Positions 20,775 through 43,628 of a DNA stretch of 53,721 nucleotides are shown in pieces. Source of the DNA: Gracilinema caldarium (GTDB taxonomy: Bacteria > Spirochaetota > Spirochaetia > Treponematales > Breznakiellaceae); NCBI RefSeq assembly GCF_029265695.1, contig NZ_JAJUHW010000018.1, positions 1-53,721 of the forward strand, read 5' to 3'. The notes beneath the pieces are model-generated. The model saw only the letters and a program-made list of their open reading frames with translations. It was not told the origin of the DNA and ran no database searches. Position numbers and translations under genes: made by a program. How positions within the stretch are numbered: the stretch's first letter is position 1; every line of letters begins with the position of its first letter.

Positions 20775-21263
20775 TTATTTCTTGCCCGTGCTGGTCTGAC
20801 TCTGGGTGGCTGTACCGGTGCTAGTCTGGCTCTGTGTCTGAGTCTGTGTTCGTGTCTGGGTCTGGTCTCCGGTCCCGTCTTTAAGCTGTAGGCGGAGCCG
20901 CTCCTGGTCCTGGGTTGTAAGCTGTACCGCATTCTTGACCTGTTCTTGTTTTCCGTTCACTTCGCAGGTGCGGGCATACAGTCTGGTTTGAATCTGAGCT
21001 GCGTTATCACCCTGTACTAATACTCCCTGGAACCGGATCTGGGCTCGTTCCCGGATTTGAAGCCGCTCAACTTCTGCTGCGGGAAGAACTACTTCTACCG
21101 TTTCACCGTTTGCTAGCTGCAGTGCAACCCGTGCTTCTGCCTGGAGCGGGGCTACCTGAAGCACCGTCCCTTCCACAGTACTCAGCTTTTCTGCATTCCC
21201 ATTTGCCCACAGGGCACCGACACTGAGCGCTACAAGCACTGCAATCAAACTAATCCGTTTCAT
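20775..21263 (-). CDS. Secreted protein with Gln/Thr/Ser repeat tail, unknown function
   Basis: A 162-residue protein with a signal peptide (MKRISLIAVLVALSVGALWA). The mature domain (about 25-130) alternates short strands (STVEGTVLQVAPLQAEARVALQLANGETVEVVLP) suggestive of a small OB-like or beta-barrel fold. A low-complexity tail from about residue 134 is made of QT/QS dipeptides with two copies of TQSQTSTG, and ends in KK. The tail may be a flexible anchor or adhesion segment. AGGAGG precedes the ATG. It is divergent from the ECF sigma gene across 149 nt. Confidence 0.72.
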   Translation of the reverse strand: MKRISLIAVLVALSVGALWANGNAEKLSTVEGTVLQVAPLQAEARVALQLANGETVEVVLPAAEVERLQIRERAQIRFQGVLVQGDNAAQIQTRLYARTCEVNGKQEQVKNAVQLTTQDQERLRLQLKDGTGDQTQTRTQTQTQSQTSTGTATQSQTSTGKK

Positions 21264-21296: not shown

Positions 21297-21404
21297 GCAT
21301 GCTCATTTTTGCATGCTCTCTAACCTTATATACCTCGCAGCCAGGGAACTGGTTGCAGGCTGATCGAGAAAAATTGGGAAAAAATGTCTTTCCCATGCTA
21401 TAGT
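21297..21404 (+). promoter_or_regulatory. Divergent control region of the ECF sigma locus
   Basis: The 149-nt gap between the divergent repeat-tail gene and the sigma gene holds two direct copies of GCATGCTC (21297-21304 and 21311-21318) 14 bp apart; each contains the palindrome GCATGC, so they can also pair as an inverted repeat. A -10-like TATAGT (21399-21404) lies 8 nt before the GTG start of the sigma gene, and no good 17-bp-spaced -35 box accompanies it. An ECF-type self-promoter is possible but cannot be recognised with confidence. Confidence 0.35.
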
Positions 21405-21412
21405 TTTCTTCT

Positions 21413-21997
21413 GTGAATGATTCAAACATGAAAACGGAAGACAAGATTCTTCTTGCAGTGCAGCATGTGCTTGCGGGAGATAAAAATGCCTTTCGTGAAA
21501 TAGTAGAAGTCTATAAAGATATGCTCTATCGGTATTGCCTTGCCAGGACTGGAAACGAAGAACGGGCTGGGGATTTGGTTCAGGAAATATTTATACGAAC
21601 CTACCGGGCGCTTCCATCCTTTAAACTTGGTAAACAGTTTAGCCCCTGGATTTTTACTATTGCATCGAATGTGCTTCGATCTTCTTGGCGCAGGCTGAAA
21701 CGTGAACAGAATATAGCTGAAAAGCTTTTTTATCCCGATGACCCTGAACAGAACAACCCTGAAAAAGATGCTTTACAGGCTGAAACTTCTGCGGAATTAC
21801 TGCAGGCCCTCAGGAATCTTCCACACGAATTATACGAGGTGCTCTATCTTTATTATTTTGAAGGTCTCTCGGTCAGCGAAATAGCAAAAACGCTTTCTTT
21901 AGGAGAAGAAAATGTAAAATCCCGTCTTTTTAGGGGAAGAAAAAAAATCCGCCAAACCATGCAACCGGAAACACTTACGAAGGGTATAATAGAATGA
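21413..21997 (+). CDS. ECF-type RNA polymerase sigma factor (sigma-70 family)
   Basis: About 190 residues, the standard ECF size. Region 2 (about 28-95) contains FREIVEVYKDMLYRYCLARTGNEERAGDLVQEIFIRTYRALPSF; region 4 (about 125-180) contains LPHELYEVLYLYYFEGLSVSEIAKTLSLGEENVKSRLFRGRKKI. Regions 1.1 and 3 are absent, as expected. It should direct transcription of an envelope-related regulon and be held inactive by the membrane protein encoded next. Both the GTG at 21413 and the ATG at 21428 are possible starts; neither has a ribosome-binding site. Its stop overlaps the anti-sigma start by 4 nt (ATGA), the classical arrangement for a sigma/anti-sigma pair. Confidence 0.92.
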   Translation: MNDSNMKTEDKILLAVQHVLAGDKNAFREIVEVYKDMLYRYCLARTGNEERAGDLVQEIFIRTYRALPSFKLGKQFSPWIFTIASNVLRSSWRRLKREQNIAEKLFYPDDPEQNNPEKDALQAETSAELLQALRNLPHELYEVLYLYYFEGLSVSEIAKTLSLGEENVKSRLFRGRKKIRQTMQPETLTKGIIE

Positions 21998-22638
21998 TGA
22001 ATTGTGAACAGATCGCTACCCTGCTGAAAAGCTGGGAACAGAATGGGACCCTCTCTCACCGTGAATTTGAAGATACATCGGCTCATCTTGCTGTATGTCC
22101 CCGCTGTGCAAAACGGTACGCTTCCCTGATGCCCTTACTCAAACGGGATGCGGGTGACGTTCCCAACTTGAGCCTTCCTAGCTGGACAAAATCTGTTCCT
22201 GATTCGGACCGAATCATGGATAGCATTGCACGTAGTACCCAAACAACAAGAGGCAAAGCCCGTCCCGAACCATTTGTCCGCTTCCCTGGCAGATTGGTTC
22301 CCCTGGTTGCCGCGGCAGCCCTTGTACTTTTGTTGCCCCTCGGATACTTCATCTATGCTAACAGGGACTCGGATACGGTCACGGTGCGTTTTGTCCTGGA
22401 AGCCCCCGGGGCGACGACGGTCACGGTTTCCGGTAATTTTAACCAATGGTCAAGCCAGGATATCCCGCTTAAACCCGAAAAGGACGGAAAAACCTGGTCT
22501 GCCACGGTAAAACTGAAACGCTCCTTTGAATACCGGTATAATTTCGTTATTGATAACCAAATCTGGATAGCTGACCCGAATGCGGCGGTCTCTATAGATG
22601 ATGATTTTGGCGGCAAGGTTTCATTGTTGGACTTATAG
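21994..22638 (+). CDS. Anti-sigma-like membrane protein with extracytoplasmic glycogen-binding (CBM48/AMPK-beta type) domain
   Basis: A 214-residue single-pass protein. The cytoplasmic N-terminus carries the zinc-anti-sigma motif HxxxCxxC (His31, Cys35, Cys38, with Cys4 as possible fourth ligand). A membrane helix spans about 102-121. The outside part (127-214) is an early-set beta-sandwich of the AMPK-beta glycogen-binding type: VRFVLEAPGATTVTVSGNFN, then QW (Trp152), and YRYNFVIDNQIWIADPNA, matching the conserved NxW and YxYxFxVD-DP pattern. I infer that glucan binding or another envelope cue could release the sigma factor encoded upstream. Family knowledge supports each domain alone; their combination as a sugar-sensing anti-sigma factor is my inference. 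Confidence 0.82.
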   Translation: MMNCEQIATLLKSWEQNGTLSHREFEDTSAHLAVCPRCAKRYASLMPLLKRDAGDVPNLSLPSWTKSVPDSDRIMDSIARSTQTTRGKARPEPFVRFPGRLVPLVAAAALVLLLPLGYFIYANRDSDTVTVRFVLEAPGATTVTVSGNFNQWSSQDIPLKPEKDGKTWSATVKLKRSFEYRYNFVIDNQIWIADPNAAVSIDDDFGGKVSLLDL

Positions 22639-22652
22639 AGTAAAGGGAGGAT

Positions 22653-23081
22653 ATGATGCGGTGCAAGAAAATCAGTTTTATGATAACGGTTGTTTTAATT
22701 GTATCAGGTATGATATATGCGCAGGAACAAAATTCTTTTGCTTTACAAACACAAAAGATACTGCAATATCTCGATAGCTTATATCCTGATTTAGCTTCTG
22801 ACAGTGCACTGCGCGCCCAGCTTACCGCACAAATTCGCATTCAATTGCTTAAGGGATATACTGTTCAGGATGCCCTTGCCCAAGCTGGGCAGGAATTGCA
22901 GTTAAGATTTAGAAGTGAAGAAAAAGATGAAGAAATGGTAGCCCGGAGATTAGAGTCTTTAAGAAATCTTGCCATGTATCGTTCAGAACGGGATATCCTG
23001 GCCGGCAAAGCGGGATTTGACCTGAGCAGAGGAAGTTCCGGCAGTTCCTCCCGGCAAAAACCGGGGTCTCCGCATCAATGA
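22653..23081 (+). CDS. Small secreted protein in the ECF sigma operon, unknown function
   Basis: A 142-residue protein with a signal peptide ending near IYAQ (residue 24). The mature part is helical and Gln/Leu/Arg-rich (ALQTQKILQYLDSLYPDLASDSALRAQLTAQ) and ends in a Ser/Gly-rich tail. I recognise no family. It follows the anti-sigma gene by 14 nt behind AAAGGGAGG and overlaps the next gene by 4 nt (ATGA), so it belongs to the same transcript. It may be a periplasmic partner or regulator of the sigma/anti-sigma pair. Confidence 0.68.
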   Translation: MMRCKKISFMITVVLIVSGMIYAQEQNSFALQTQKILQYLDSLYPDLASDSALRAQLTAQIRIQLLKGYTVQDALAQAGQELQLRFRSEEKDEEMVARRLESLRNLAMYRSERDILAGKAGFDLSRGSSGSSSRQKPGSPHQ

Positions 23082-23770
23082 AAGGTAAATTTGTTTTCCT
23101 GTTAAGCTTTTTTATCCTCCCCGCTTTTATGATCTGGGGCGAATATGCCCCCCGTGTCTGGTTGCAGAGCAGCGCTTCCAGCGCTTACCATTCGGTATCA
23201 CAGGAATTGCAAAGCCTTATTAACGATGCAGAGTCACGGCGCATCCCTGAAAATCTTGTACTCGACAAACTCAAAGAAGGGGCGGCAAAACGGGTTCCCC
23301 CGCAACAGCTCCTGCAGGCCCTGAGGACTGAAATTGATCGATTAACCATAGCAATGCAGCTTCTGCAAAAGGGTAGCCCTGTTCAAAATGCGCAGTTAGA
23401 GTCCCTGCTTAAAAGTTTGTCTTTGCTGCTACAAGGAGGTGTACTGGTGGACACCATAGATGCGGTCATTGACTATGCCGTCATGTTAGAAAAAAGCTCC
23501 AGTCGGGCCGTCAACGCCCTTTCATCGGCTTTTAGAATCATTGCCATAGCCCAGGCTCCGGCGGAGCTATTGCGGCCACTTTCAGAGTGTCTCGTTCGCA
23601 GCAACCTTTCGGAGTCCCAGTTCCCCCAGTTACAATCCTTTGCAGTTCGCGCCAAAAGCCGGCAAGTCCTCGGAGAAAACATGATAAAACTCATTATAGG
23701 AAGTTTGGACGGGGGCTACGGATTAGTTGGCCTGGATCGGGAGCTGCAAAAAAGGAGTCAGCGCCCATGA
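23078..23770 (+). CDS. Secreted helical protein in the ECF sigma operon, unknown function
   Basis: A 230-residue protein with a signal peptide (MKGKFVFLLSFFILPAFMIWG). The remainder is predicted mostly helical. One stretch repeats the theme of its upstream neighbour: ELQSLINDAESRRIPENLVLDKLKEGAAKRVPPQQLLQALRTEIDRL parallels the QLTAQIRIQLLKGYTVQDALAQAGQEL segment there, so the two may be related. No catalytic motif is visible. ATGA overlaps couple it to both neighbours. Confidence 0.68.
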   Translation: MKGKFVFLLSFFILPAFMIWGEYAPRVWLQSSASSAYHSVSQELQSLINDAESRRIPENLVLDKLKEGAAKRVPPQQLLQALRTEIDRLTIAMQLLQKGSPVQNAQLESLLKSLSLLLQGGVLVDTIDAVIDYAVMLEKSSSRAVNALSSAFRIIAIAQAPAELLRPLSECLVRSNLSESQFPQLQSFAVRAKSRQVLGENMIKLIIGSLDGGYGLVGLDRELQKRSQRP

Positions 23771-24681
23771 AAAAATATAGCGGAATTGTCTTATTATTTT
23801 TATTAACAATCATTTATCAGCCTCAGAGCCTTAATGCAGAACTGGTATTAAAACCCGGTGCAGGTTTTGGAGCTCAGGACCAATCGTTTGCTGAACCAAG
23901 CCTTTTTTACGGTGGGCAGGCTGGTTTTTCCGCTGACATCAATCTAGGAACCGAATGCCTTGTGAGCCTCAGCGGATCACTAGACGGAACCTGGTGGCAA
24001 AAACCATCAGCAAGCCAGTTTAACGCTCAGGGCGGAGTTGATTTTTCCCTTGCTCAGGACTTCTGGGTTTACAAAGCAGGACTTTCGGGCTCCTTTGGGG
24101 AAGACCAGCTTGCAGATACGGGTGCCTCAGGCAACATCCAATTCAGCCTGGCCGGCATCCGCAATGGTGCCACCGTGTCTTATCAAATTGATGGCTCTGT
24201 TCTTTTTAATGTTGGCCAAACTCTGACCATCGATTACTTTGGCGGGATTTCCGCTTCTTTGCTCTGGGGAGAGACGGTGGTAAAACCCGGCTTTGCTCTG
24301 TATACCAGTATGGCATCCTCTGGGTTCACATCATATTCGGTGAGTCCAAAACTTGGGCTGTCTTGGTATCCCGCCTTTCCTATTGCTCTCGATATTGTGC
24401 TTCTCTATGAAAGAAATCTCCTTGAACCAGGCGATTCACTGCAAATAAATACAGACTTTTCGATGCAGCCAGTGCCGATATTCGGTGTCAGTCTATCCCA
24501 TGAGGCTTCTATGAGCAGCACTGGATATACCGGTACGGTATGGGGCGAGTTCCGTTTCAATCTTTATGCTTCCCTATGTTGTACAAGCTGGTGGTATGTA
24601 TCAGGCAGCATGGATTACACAGAATTTTTGGATACCAATACTGGGTGGAAACTCAGTACTGGTGTAGGATTCCGCTTCTAA
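23767..24681 (+). CDS. Predicted outer-membrane beta-barrel protein in the ECF sigma operon
   Basis: A 304-residue protein with a signal peptide (MKKYSGIVLLFLLTIIYQPQSLNA). The rest is a long series of amphipathic strands rich in Ser, Gly, Tyr and Trp (CLVSLSGSLDGTWWQ, FWVYKAGLSGSFGED, SVSPKLGLSWYPAF), ending GVGFRF with a C-terminal Phe, which fits an outer-membrane barrel. The start at 23767 overlaps the upstream stop (ATGA) and is preceded by AAAGGAG; the frame is open from 23587 but that is another gene's territory. It is the last gene of the sigma operon and could be an outer-membrane porin or scaffold tied to the sensed signal. Confidence 0.7.
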   Translation: MKKYSGIVLLFLLTIIYQPQSLNAELVLKPGAGFGAQDQSFAEPSLFYGGQAGFSADINLGTECLVSLSGSLDGTWWQKPSASQFNAQGGVDFSLAQDFWVYKAGLSGSFGEDQLADTGASGNIQFSLAGIRNGATVSYQIDGSVLFNVGQTLTIDYFGGISASLLWGETVVKPGFALYTSMASSGFTSYSVSPKLGLSWYPAFPIALDIVLLYERNLLEPGDSLQINTDFSMQPVPIFGVSLSHEASMSSTGYTGTVWGEFRFNLYASLCCTSWWYVSGSMDYTEFLDTNTGWKLSTGVGFRF

Positions 24682-24744: not shown

Positions 24745-25056
24745 ATGTCAAAACGCATGAGTTTGGGTACCCTGTTAAAACCTAAACAGGAACAGAAGCT
24801 GCAGGAACCAGAACAGTACCGGGTAGTGTTGCTCAACGATGACTATACCACCATGGATTTTGTAGTAGCTGTACTGATGATGGTTTTCCATAAGGATGAA
24901 ACAGAAGCCCAACGAATCATGCTGGATGTTCATAAGAAGGGAAGGGGTGTGGTCGGTATATATCCCTGGGATATTGCAACCACCAAGGCTGAACAAGTTC
25001 ATAGCCTTGCCCGTCAGGCCGAATTCCCCCTACGCTGTCTTGTAGAGAAAGCTTAA
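24745..25056 (+). CDS. clpS: ATP-dependent Clp protease adaptor ClpS
   Basis: A 103-residue adaptor that delivers N-degron substrates to ClpAP in the cytoplasm. A variable N-terminal tail (about 25 residues) is followed by the conserved core YRVVLLNDDYTTMDFVV, which contains the Asn-Asp-Asp that reads the N-terminal residue, then LMMVFHKDETEAQRIMLDVHKKGRGVVG and AEQVHSLARQAEFPLRCLVE. The length matches the family. It starts behind AGGGG and is followed by three hairpins, then clpA and aat, so the recognition, unfolding and tagging parts of the Leu/N-degron pathway are clustered here. Confidence 0.94.
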   Translation: MSKRMSLGTLLKPKQEQKLQEPEQYRVVLLNDDYTTMDFVVAVLMMVFHKDETEAQRIMLDVHKKGRGVVGIYPWDIATTKAEQVHSLARQAEFPLRCLVEKA

Positions 25057-25232: not shown

Positions 25233-27626
25233 ATGCAGATAAGCCGCCATGTGCAGGCTATAATAAATGCCGCTTACAACGAAGCCAAGGTCCGGAACCA
25301 CGAATACCTTACCCCGGAACACATACTCTATGCCGCGCTGGCCTTTGAAGAAGTTCAGCAGGTACTCGCTGCCTGCGGGGCAGACCTTAACCAGATTAAG
25401 AGCGGCATGGAAAACTATTTTGAGCAAAAAGTTCCGGTTGTACAAAATATGGAACCTACCCAAACTGTAGGTTTCCAGAGCGTCCTGGAACGGGCGGTAC
25501 TCCAGAGTCAGTCAGCCCAAAAACAAGAGCTCGATGTGGCAGATATTCTGGTATCCCTGTATGACGAAGAACGCAACTATTGCGCCTACTACCTCAGAAA
25601 AGCCGGTGTAAAGCGTATCGATTTGCTTGAGGTCCTTTCCCACGGAATCCGTTTCGGTGAAGAATCAGAGGAAGATGCCCCTGATAATATGGACCCATCA
25701 GCTTCTGGTTCCTGGAAAGAAAAAAACGACGAAAATGCCGAAGATTCAGAAAGTGAAGGCGGTATCGAACCGGAGCCCCGAATACGGCCGGCTCGGAAAA
25801 GCGCCCTGGAGCGCTTTACTACCGACCTCACCGCCCTCGCCCGGGAAGGAAAGCTTGAGCCGGTTATCGGCCGGGAACATGAACTTGACCGGACCGTGCA
25901 GGTCCTCTGCCGGCGGCTTAAAAACAATCCTATCCATGTGGGCGATTCGGGGGTAGGAAAAACAGCTATTACCGAGGGACTCGCCCAGCGCATAGTGGCT
26001 GGCAATGTGCCGCCAACTTTAAAGGATTTTTCAATTTACGCCCTTGATATGGGAGCCTTGGTAGCGGGCACCAAATACCGGGGTGATTTTGAGGAACGGA
26101 TAAAAAAGGTGGTTGATGAAATCCTGAAAAAGGAAAAGGCTATCCTTTTTATCGATGAAATTCACACCCTCGTGGGAGCCGGAGCAACCTCAGGCGGGTC
26201 ATTGGACGCGTCGAACCTCTTAAAGCCTGCCCTGACCTCCGGAAAAATCCGCTGTATCGGTTCCACGACCCACGAGGAATACACCAAGTATTTTGATAAA
26301 GACCGGGCCCTCTCCCGGCGTTTCCAGAAAATCGATATTAATGAACCAAGCGAAGCGGACGCAATCGCCATACTCAAGGGGCTTCGCCACAAATATGAAG
26401 AATTCCACCGGGTCCGCTACACCGATGCGGCCTTGGAAACGGCGGTGCGGCTTTCTGCGCAGTTTATCACCGAGCGGCGCCTCCCCGACAAGGCTATTGA
26501 TGTTATTGACGAAGCGGGGGCCTTCGCCCGGATACAGGCCTTCAAGGCCCGGGAAGAACAGGGAGTAAGGGCCGACATAGCACTACCTGAAAACATTGGC
26601 GATCCCTTCCCGGATGAAAGCTCCGATGCTGACTTTATAGAAATTGATGTTCCCCAGATAGAAACTGTGGTAGCCCGGATTGCCCGTATTCCTGAGCGGA
26701 CCGTTGGGGAAAGCGAAAAGGATAAACTGCGGTTCCTGGAAAAACGTCTTAAGGAGCGCATCTTCGGCCAGGATGCGGCTGTTGAAGCCGTGGTCCGGGC
26801 GGTTAAACAGTCCCGGGCAGGGTTCCGTTCTCCCAACAAGCCTGTAGCAAACTTCCTTTTTGTGGGACCCACCGGGGTCGGCAAGACCGAACTTGCCCGG
26901 AGCCTGGCGGATGTGCTGGGGATCGCCATGCACCGTTTTGATATGAGCGAATACCAGGAAAAACATACGGTGAGCCGCCTTATCGGGTCCCCGCCAGGCT
27001 ATGTGGGCTACGAAGAGGGTGGCCTTTTGACCGATGCGGTCCGGAAACAGCCCCATGCGGTAGTTCTCCTGGATGAAATAGAAAAAGCTCATCCTGATAT
27101 TTACAATATATTGCTCCAGATTATGGACTATGCCACCCTGACGGACAACAACGGCAGAAAGGCCGACTTCCGCAATGTGGTGTTCATTATGACCAGCAAT
27201 GCGGGAGCCCGGGATATCGGCAAGAGCCTTATTGGGTTCGGCGAGCGAATCCTGGACGAAGCCGTCGTGGACGGCGCTGTGGAGCGAATATTTACCCCCG
27301 AATTCCGCAACCGTCTTGATGCGGTGGTGCGCTTCGGACACCTGAACCAGGACATAGTGGCTTCCATTGTTCGCAAGGAATTGGACCTGTTCCGCCAGCA
27401 GCTTGCCGAAAAGAAGGTGGTGCTCGAGGTCACCGAATCCTGCATCATGGCCCTTGCACGGGACGGATACAGCCGTGAATTTGGGGCTCGGAATGTATCT
27501 CGCTTAATAGAAGATAAAATTAAGAGCTTCTTTGTAGACGAGGTCCTCTTTGGCAAGCTCTCCTCCGGAGGTATTGCCAAGGCGGATTGGATCGACGATG
27601 CTTACAAGATAGAGGTGGTTTCTTAA
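25233..27626 (+). CDS. clpA: ATP-dependent Clp protease ATPase subunit ClpA
   Basis: A 797-residue AAA+ unfoldase that feeds ClpP. The N-domain (1-145) has two Clp repeats. An acidic linker of about 35 residues ([10 protein letters not shown]...[12 protein letters not shown]) makes it longer than the 758-residue E. coli protein. AAA-1 has Walker A GDSGVGKT and Walker [18 protein letters not shown]-2 has GPTGVGKT and [13 protein letters not shown]. The ClpP-docking loop contains IGF ([10 protein letters not shown]). There is no ClpB-type middle coiled coil. It sits between clpS and aat, with one base separating it from aat. Confidence 0.95.
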
Positions 27627-42137: not shown

Positions 42138-43628
42138 TTATAGTCCATCGACAGAGTAAACCGCATAGCCCCGAGGTGGAGCCCACACCTCTACCCAGCC
42201 GTTGCTGTCGCAGTATTTCGTCTGGGGTTGGTAATTTTGGCCACTGACCGGAGAATACCAGGCATATACCTTAAGATTTTTATTCTTTAAATAATTATTT
42301 CCTGTCTGCACCCAAGAACCTTTCCAGCTTGTGGGATGGTCATTGATAATAACGATGTAACCAGGAGAACTAGTTGAAGTCCCATAGCTGCCATAAATGA
42401 GCATGTCACCATCATTGGTTTTAAGATTTTGTATAGTTGGTGCTCCAGAAGCTAGTTTCCCTCTGACCCAGACCAATTGTTTAATACCATTACCCCACTG
42501 GCCGCCTAGGTTGCTCAGTCCATAATTGTAATAATCTTTCCACCAGATACAGGGGTAACCCTGGTATGTAAGTATGAACGCATAAGCCATCATTTTATCT
42601 GTGTAAATTTCGTCTGTGTCGTGGTTCCCAACAAAAGTGACAGCCCTCATGGGATTCTTGGCTGCGAAGGACTTACTATAATCGACCAGATTGGGCAAAT
42701 ATCCGCCACCGCTGGTATTATTGCAGATATCCTTCATGGTGTAATAGAGGGCAAAATCAAATGCAGAAGCATTGGCTTCATTGGTCCACCAGTTCAAAGT
42801 ATCGGTATTCGCATCCCAATATTCGCCGACTGAGAAAGCTCCGCCAGTAGCGGCTTTCATGTCTTTTATTACCCACGGTTCAAGACCTTTAACATAGTCA
42901 AAACGCCACTGGGTAAAGCCCGCATTGGTGGTACTCATCAACCAGTTCATCCATGCCTTCTGATCATTGTATGCAGAGCCAGATACAAAACAGACATCAG
43001 GGAACCCTGCAAATGCACCGGGATCGCTGGAACAATAATTATTGGGATGGAAGGAATCCCAATGCCATTTATTCTTTCCTGAGGCAACTGCAGAAAAGTC
43101 TGTCCATGTATTGGCACCAGTTTTAGGATTAAATTCGCTATTTCCTCCAGATCGGTGGTTCAAAACTATATCAGCCATACTGGCGATACCGTAACTTTTA
43201 AAAGCTGCAATAGTACTCTTTAATTCCGCCTGTGAACCGAAGCGGGTTTCGATAGATCCTTTTTGATTGTATTGGCCGAGATCGTAATAATCGAATGGAT
43301 CGTAGCCCATGGAATAGGCTCCATTGTCAGCCTTGGAAGGTGGCGGGAACCATATCGCATCAATACCATAGCCGCCAGCCATATTGGCAAGTTCCGCAGC
43401 CTTGCTTTTCATGGTGTTATACCAGGTACCCCCTGCAGGGACGTCCCAATAAAAGCCCTGCATCATGACCCCAGATTTACCGGTTATGGAACGGGCTATG
43501 CCGGTATCATTAGTGCCAGCCTGATCATTCTGGCTCGATCCAAAAAACTGTGTGTCACATCCTGAGAACAGTAGTAAAAGGCTTGCTGCAACAGCAAGCA
43601 CAATACTAAATCTCATACCCCTTTTCAT
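42138..43628 (-). CDS. Alpha-amylase lipoprotein (glycoside hydrolase family 13)
   Basis: A 496-residue secreted enzyme with lipobox LFSGC (Cys24), so it should sit on an envelope membrane. It hydrolyses alpha-1,4-glucans. The four GH13 regions are present: DIVLNHR, WRFDYVKG with nucleophile Asp244, SVGEYWD with acid/base Glu269, and FVGNHDTDE with transition-state Asp337. A C-terminal beta domain follows (VWVRGKLASG ... GYAVYSVDGL). The pattern resembles the liquefying bacterial alpha-amylases (GH13_5-like). AAGGAGG precedes the ATG. The divergent neighbour encodes a starch-binding-like protein, and the sugar importer upstream could take up the products after further breakdown. Confidence 0.94.
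   Translation of the reverse strand: MKRGMRFSIVLAVAASLLLLFSGCDTQFFGSSQNDQAGTNDTGIARSITGKSGVMMQGFYWDVPAGGTWYNTMKSKAAELANMAGGYGIDAIWFPPPSKADNGAYSMGYDPFDYYDLGQYNQKGSIETRFGSQAELKSTIAAFKSYGIASMADIVLNHRSGGNSEFNPKTGANTWTDFSAVASGKNKWHWDSFHPNNYCSSDPGAFAGFPDVCFVSGSAYNDQKAWMNWLMSTTNAGFTQWRFDYVKGLEPWVIKDMKAATGGAFSVGEYWDANTDTLNWWTNEANASAFDFALYYTMKDICNNTSGGGYLPNLVDYSKSFAAKNPMRAVTFVGNHDTDEIYTDKMMAYAFILTYQGYPCIWWKDYYNYGLSNLGGQWGNGIKQLVWVRGKLASGAPTIQNLKTNDGDMLIYGSYGTSTSSPGYIVIINDHPTSWKGSWVQTGNNYLKNKNLKVYAWYSPVSGQNYQPQTKYCDSNGWVEVWAPPRGYAVYSVDGL

Follow-up and report, generated by a model that had tools for sequence, protein, structure and literature searches.

A predicted ECF sigma factor module with a CBM48-bearing anti-sigma protein and a conserved exported partner in Gracilinema caldarium

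The window analyzed here is a 53,721-nt stretch of Gracilinema caldarium DNA (contig NZ_JAJUHW010000018.1), part of a 3.04 Mb genome in 88 contigs whose near relatives are metagenome-assembled genomes (MAGs) deposited as Treponema sp. It holds a row of five open reading frames (ORFs) that encode an extracytoplasmic function (ECF) sigma factor, an anti-sigma protein with a CBM48 outer domain, and three exported proteins, called here p3, p4 and the barrel candidate (Table 1). The first two genes and p4 form a core that recurs across distant bacteria. We give about even chances to the reading that this is a self-contained ECF envelope module in which a ligand, most likely glucan-type, binds to the CBM48 domain and frees the sigma factor. 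A wider claim, held somewhat more tentatively, is that the ECF factor, the CBM48 anti-sigma protein and p4 make up a hitherto undescribed trans-envelope sensor of three parts, found in at least three phyla, in which an AMPK-type glucan module may gate an anti-sigma factor in diderms and p4 may represent a new family of periplasmic signalling partners.

The ECF protein, about 190 aa long, matched Sigma70_r2 (59.6 bits) and Sigma70_r4_2 (50.8 bits) over the Pfam cut-offs, as well as TIGR02937 (110 bits against a cut-off of 42.9), and has both regions, 2 and 4, that the family requires. An initial annotation had described its gene as ATGA-coupled to a single-pass anti-sigma protein with an inner HxxxCxxC motif. 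This was confirmed by the ORFs, by Pfam, by a literal HLAVCPRC near the N-terminus, present although the zf-HC2 match was below the cut-off (11.8 bits), and by a single hydrophobic helix at residues 102-123. From the gene coupling and the conserved pairing, the protein is predicted to bind and inhibit its cognate sigma factor. The five genes had also been read as one overlapping operon. ATGA overlaps do join the ECF and anti-sigma genes, p3 and p4, and p4 and the barrel candidate, but the overlap is not continuous, since 14 bases part the anti-sigma gene from p3.

The AMPK-beta/CBM48-like outer domain proposed for the anti-sigma protein proved genuine. Residues 127-208 matched CBM_48 (41.1 bits, cut-off 22.4) and AMPK1_CBM (37.6 bits, cut-off 26.8) in Pfam. 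In the AlphaFold model of the protein (mean pLDDT 77.6; outer-domain blocks 77-93), residues 125-214 aligned with AMPK-beta over 82 residues (Z 12.4, rmsd 1.8), and the top Foldseek matches were the starch phosphatase SEX4 and AMPK-beta. A different fold, which the annotation had named as grounds for rejecting its proposal, was therefore not what the model gave: the fold is that of AMPK-beta and the tryptophan platform is invariant. CBM48 domains typically bind alpha-1,4/1,6-glucans, and in AMPK-beta the residues W100 and W133 stack on the sugar. When the anti-sigma protein was placed on AMPK-beta1, W152 corresponded to W100 and W191 to W133; tryptophan was found at both stacking positions in 33/33 anti-sigma domains from three phyla, including loci without the barrel. 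Among other CBM48 domains from the same searches (in amylases, esterases and short proteins), which served as controls, the W133 column was often M, Y or a gap, so the CBM48 fold does not demand the second tryptophan. The position of L146 is F, L or M across the anti-sigma domains, and no part of the protein is better conserved than the outer domain. As read from these alignments, a saccharide platform is retained, with details unlike those of AMPK-beta, and the sequence cannot tell the ligand.

The linkage to p4 was followed in two sets of genomes. Among 59 genomes (that of the window and its relatives), an ECF-linked CBM48 anti-sigma gene was found in 16, and p4, in one copy each, in 15, all of them anti-sigma carriers. 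The sole anti-sigma genome without p4 (G025) has a locus that runs into a contig edge, and none of the 59 genomes carried p4 without the anti-sigma gene. A scan of species genomes for CBM48 anti-sigma proteins gave 46 loci, of which 27 (L055-L081) have an ECF gene before the CBM48 gene. The order ECF gene, membrane CBM48 protein, p4 was observed in 27/27 of these named loci, 24 of them from spirochaetes or probable spirochaetes, two from Nitrospirota/Thermodesulfovibrionales and one from Kiritimatiellales. Since the loci were picked by CBM48 sequence only, the co-occurrence of p4 is independent evidence; a profile from which they had been left out also recovered the p4 proteins of the Nitrospirota and Kiritimatiellales loci (E 4e-7 to 2e-10). 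A chance arrangement is excluded by synteny: related genomes have this gene order, and every named locus has the three-gene core. Conservation of all five genes, which the initial annotation had put forward as a check, held across the named loci for this core, with p3-like ORFs and the barrel each found in fewer than half of the loci. A lack of linkage in relatives, the annotation's other ground for rejection examined here, was not observed. By its distribution p4 is an obligate third component, a role the annotation had overlooked. The protein is exported, about 230 aa long and confidently predicted to be all-helical, with a conserved core around LxEGAAKxVxPxxL. No Pfam family was found for p3, p4 or the barrel candidate. 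The p4 model had no Foldseek match among solved structures at E <= 0.001, and its closest resemblance (Z 7.0) was rejected as within the background for helical proteins.

Also overlooked were two sigma-type promoter motifs that likely mark the regulon, one of them serving a divergent exported-protein gene outside the segment annotated. Comparison of upstream regions revealed a conserved plus-strand GGTTGCA, equivalent to a TGCAACC directed away from the sigma gene. The AAC core of GCAACC fits the AAC triad noted for the -35 box of ECF promoters (PMC6056542). In a survey of 30 spirochaete loci with 200 shuffled sets as a control, GCAACC-N17-GTA lay at most 60 bases from the anti-sigma start in 18 loci (0 in the shuffles) and on the divergent side in 19. 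Spacers of 10-16 and 18-20 bases gave 0 on the anti-sigma side, and across both sites other spacers gave 0-3. Genome-wide there are four GCAACC-N17-GTAT sites, two at the locus (three matches for a reversed control pattern), and likewise four matches to TGCAACC-N15-18-GTATA, again two at the locus (0 control matches). Further sites were found in C1, C14 and C73, the last with a 15-base spacer and the first in the end of a coding sequence, and the extra matches in ten relatives mostly had other spacers or were inside genes. A wide regulon of alpha-glucan genes was rejected, on the evidence at hand, for the small number of further sites. Conservation of the motif as a by-product of protein conservation was likewise rejected, because the motif is intergenic in L063 and L064 and lies before the divergent gene.

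The divergent gene is a probable target of the ECF factor, judging from its motif. It varies with lineage: an OB-like exported protein in the group of the window, a DUF4382 lipoprotein (87-122 bits) in others, and other small exported proteins elsewhere; in L072 a third motif site precedes one more exported protein. The TATAGT found 8 bases before the ECF GTG in seven loci suggests a leaderless, housekeeping-like promoter of the sigma-70 type. In the window, 5 bases separate the end of the -10 box from the ATG of the anti-sigma gene, which indicates a leaderless transcript. Both -10 boxes, at the sigma (21399-21413) and anti-sigma (21984-21996) starts, are near enough to expect such transcripts. 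With a predicted promoter inside the 3' end of its own gene, the sigma factor would feed back on its brake and on envelope genes, not on itself.

We propose that a housekeeping-type promoter of its own drives the sigma gene and that the cytoplasmic domain of the anti-sigma protein would hold the product, with the CBM48 domain displayed to the periplasm. A saccharide, most likely glucan-type, would stack on W152/W191 and change the state of the CBM48 domain, possibly through p4; the anti-sigma protein would then be inactivated, probably by intramembrane proteolysis, and the sigma factor freed. Freed sigma would transcribe the anti-sigma gene, p3, p4 and the barrel from the GCAACC-N17-GTATA inside the sigma gene 3' end, and the divergent gene from the second such motif. 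A brake driven by sigma would give negative feedback without sigma amplification. In this scheme we infer the use of these promoters by the sigma factor, the proteolytic release, the role of p4 as a physical partner and the saccharide signal. A gene for a peptidase M50 (site-2-protease family) is present in the genome, and RsgI is degraded by RseP and then ClpXP to release its sigma factor (PMC12203970). The genome carries about 10 GH13 genes, one within the window, and these, together with the fold and the invariant platform, make a glucan the most likely single ligand. Delivery of the glucan by the barrel, as the initial annotation had imagined, is not supported as a general route, since the barrel is optional (about 13 of the 30 spirochaete loci; missing from L059, L062, L065, L068, L069 and the f5-type loci), unlike p4, which these loci never lack.

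Several observations weigh against the glucan-responsive mechanism. The polar contacts of AMPK-beta are not kept: the equivalent of K126 is N, I or M in all 33 anti-sigma domains, that of T148 is mostly G and that of N150 is variable, which leaves no canonical AMPK-like glycogen site. The HxxxCxxC motif is missing from 14 of the 33 anti-sigma members, and the promoter motif from the Nitrospirota and Kiritimatiellales loci. The operon contains no alpha-glucan gene, nor does any such gene have the motif, and the predicted targets are envelope proteins of unassigned role. Protein binding to p4 is a serious rival to a glucan ligand. The locus could be an envelope-stress module in which the CBM48 (early-set) fold now binds protein and contacts p4, with p4 acting like RseB and sensing an outer-membrane protein, for instance the barrel, that is misfolded or mislocalised, without any involvement of sugar. 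The strict linkage of p4 to the anti-sigma gene, the envelope targets, the loss of the polar contacts and the barrel in the operon at many loci are all consistent with this, but it leaves the sugar-platform tryptophans, invariant in three phyla even where there is no barrel, hard to account for, and we consider it less likely than the glucan reading.

Envelope targets in place of sugar-catabolic genes would also fit a domain that senses the periplasmic or surface glucan of the cell itself, a ligand of the kind CBM48 domains typically bind, so that envelope proteins are matched to the coat and not to food. No glucan synthesis gene is linked to the module, however, and its distribution is patchy among close relatives, with the complete genome G001 lacking it; we regard this version as improbable. 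The system does persist where the cytoplasmic domain varies, including a group without the zinc motif, as it might if the CBM48 domain were a structural leftover and only the transmembrane or cytoplasmic part read the signal. Such a leftover would hardly be the best conserved part of the protein, with platform tryptophans that never vary, and this explanation is very improbable.

Carbohydrate-sensing anti-sigma factors are mainly known from SigI/RsgI of cellulolytic clostridia. If the glucan reading is true, an ECF version with the AMPK glycogen-sensing module in a spirochaete periplasm extends the principle to diderms. The module shares with SigI/RsgI of Clostridium thermocellum (PMC6056542, PMC12203970) a membrane anti-sigma protein with an outer substrate-sensing module and a sigma and anti-sigma pair in one operon. 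SigI, however, lacks region 4 and is not an ECF factor, and the system is Gram-positive with a cellulosome regulon, whereas the spirochaete module combines a true ECF factor with CBM48, a diderm envelope, an obligate p4 and a local envelope regulon. It is not a member of the RsgI family, because its partner sigma is a true ECF factor with region 4. By sequence it belongs to the kind of the zinc-anti-sigma (ZAS)/ECF pairs, with which it shares ATGA coupling, the HxxxCxxC motif (19/33 members) and the single transmembrane (TM) helix. It differs from them in the outer CBM48 domain, p4, the branch without the zinc motif, and the promoter motif inside the sigma gene end, by which anti-sigma but not sigma would be fed back. 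RpoE/RseA/RseB likewise have sigma, membrane anti-sigma and exported partner in order, and envelope targets. To our knowledge RseA has no CBM48 domain, and p4, in contrast to RseB, has an all-helical model with no Pfam match and no Foldseek match at that threshold. With the CBM48 of AMPK-beta and SEX4, the outer domain has in common the fold and both stacking tryptophans; it differs in its replaced polar contacts and in its place outside the inner membrane on an anti-sigma protein. Our literature search found no description of an ECF factor with a CBM48/AMPK1_CBM anti-sigma protein, in line with the initial annotation, although the ECF classification literature was only partly covered and a listing there is possible. 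The module is a compact, testable system, offering a pair of predicted promoters, two candidate ligand residues and, in p4, a new partner protein.

Table 1. Features of the predicted module and its surroundings (positions in the window).
Feature	Position	Strand	Basis and remarks
Divergent exported-protein gene	20775..21263	-	ORF; TOBE/OB-like region, Q/T-rich tail; weak TOBE similarity below cut-off; beside ECF gene in four relatives
Promoter-like motif TGCAACC-N17-GTATA	21329..21357	-	Reads toward divergent gene; also in G002, G018 and G003 (one mismatch)
TATAGT, -10-like box	21399..21404	+	8 bases before ECF GTG; kept in window, G002, G003, G018, L063, L064, L067
ECF sigma factor, regions 2 and 4, GTG start	21413..21997	+	Pfam, NCBIfam
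Promoter-like motif TGCAACC-N17-GTATA	21960..21988	+	In last ECF codons, 34 bases before anti-sigma ATG
Predicted single-pass anti-sigma protein, 214 aa	21994..22638	+	HLAVCPRC, TM helix, CBM48; NCBIfam antisigma below cut-off
Anti-sigma TM helix, residues 102-123	22297..22362	+	Hydropathy, AlphaFold helix
CBM48/AMPK1_CBM outer domain, residues 127-214, W152 and W191	22372..22635	+	Pfam, structure match
p3, exported small helical protein, accessory	22653..23081	+	ORF, signal peptide; orthologues in G002, G003, G018
p4, exported all-helical protein	23078..23770	+	27/27 named loci; not seen in relatives that lack anti-sigma; AlphaFold pLDDT 92.9
Exported probable outer-membrane beta-barrel, accessory	23767..24681	+	Periodicity, C-terminus; one family across four locus groups (profile comparison)

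Among the accessory genes, the position of p3 is taken in other loci by a similar-sized exported ORF, with mostly undetectable homology; a single p3 family everywhere was not supported, as profile comparison gave only one link between groups. The last exported protein of the row is a probable outer-membrane beta-barrel, based on its signal peptide, a hydrophobic pattern that repeats every two residues (z about +5 relative to shuffles, compared with z -2.7 for alpha periodicity) and the C-terminal GVGFRF. The family links of its members had probabilities of 61-97%. Low-complexity Q/T/G/N-rich tails end the divergent exported proteins and several p4 proteins (20775-21263; L041:7020-7631; L069:3674-4357).

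A number of variants were also observed. The ECF gene looks frameshift-split in G025 (L042:47-1102) and G050 (L071:1396-1964), through either decay or an assembly error. Most zinc-type anti-sigma genes start with ATGATG. In L047-L051 and L070-L081 (f5-type spirochaetes, L072, Nitrospirota and Kiritimatiellales) the anti-sigma protein keeps its TM-CBM48 part without HxxxCxxC, and the cytoplasmic part is often much shorter. A short stand-alone CBM48 gene precedes the ECF gene in the Nitrospirota loci (L079:3720-4097, L080:3597-4010), giving two CBM48 proteins per gene row, and L070 and L073 are two similar, non-identical copies of the module on two contigs of the MAG USDV_maxbin.089. A lipoprotein-like secreted alpha-amylase with a GH13 match is encoded 18 kb from the module (42138-43628, minus strand). 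Finally, clpS (24745-25056) and a clpA-type gene (25233-27626) immediately follow the module in the window, G002 and G003, a neighbourhood that is probably not functional because it is missing beside the module in G018.

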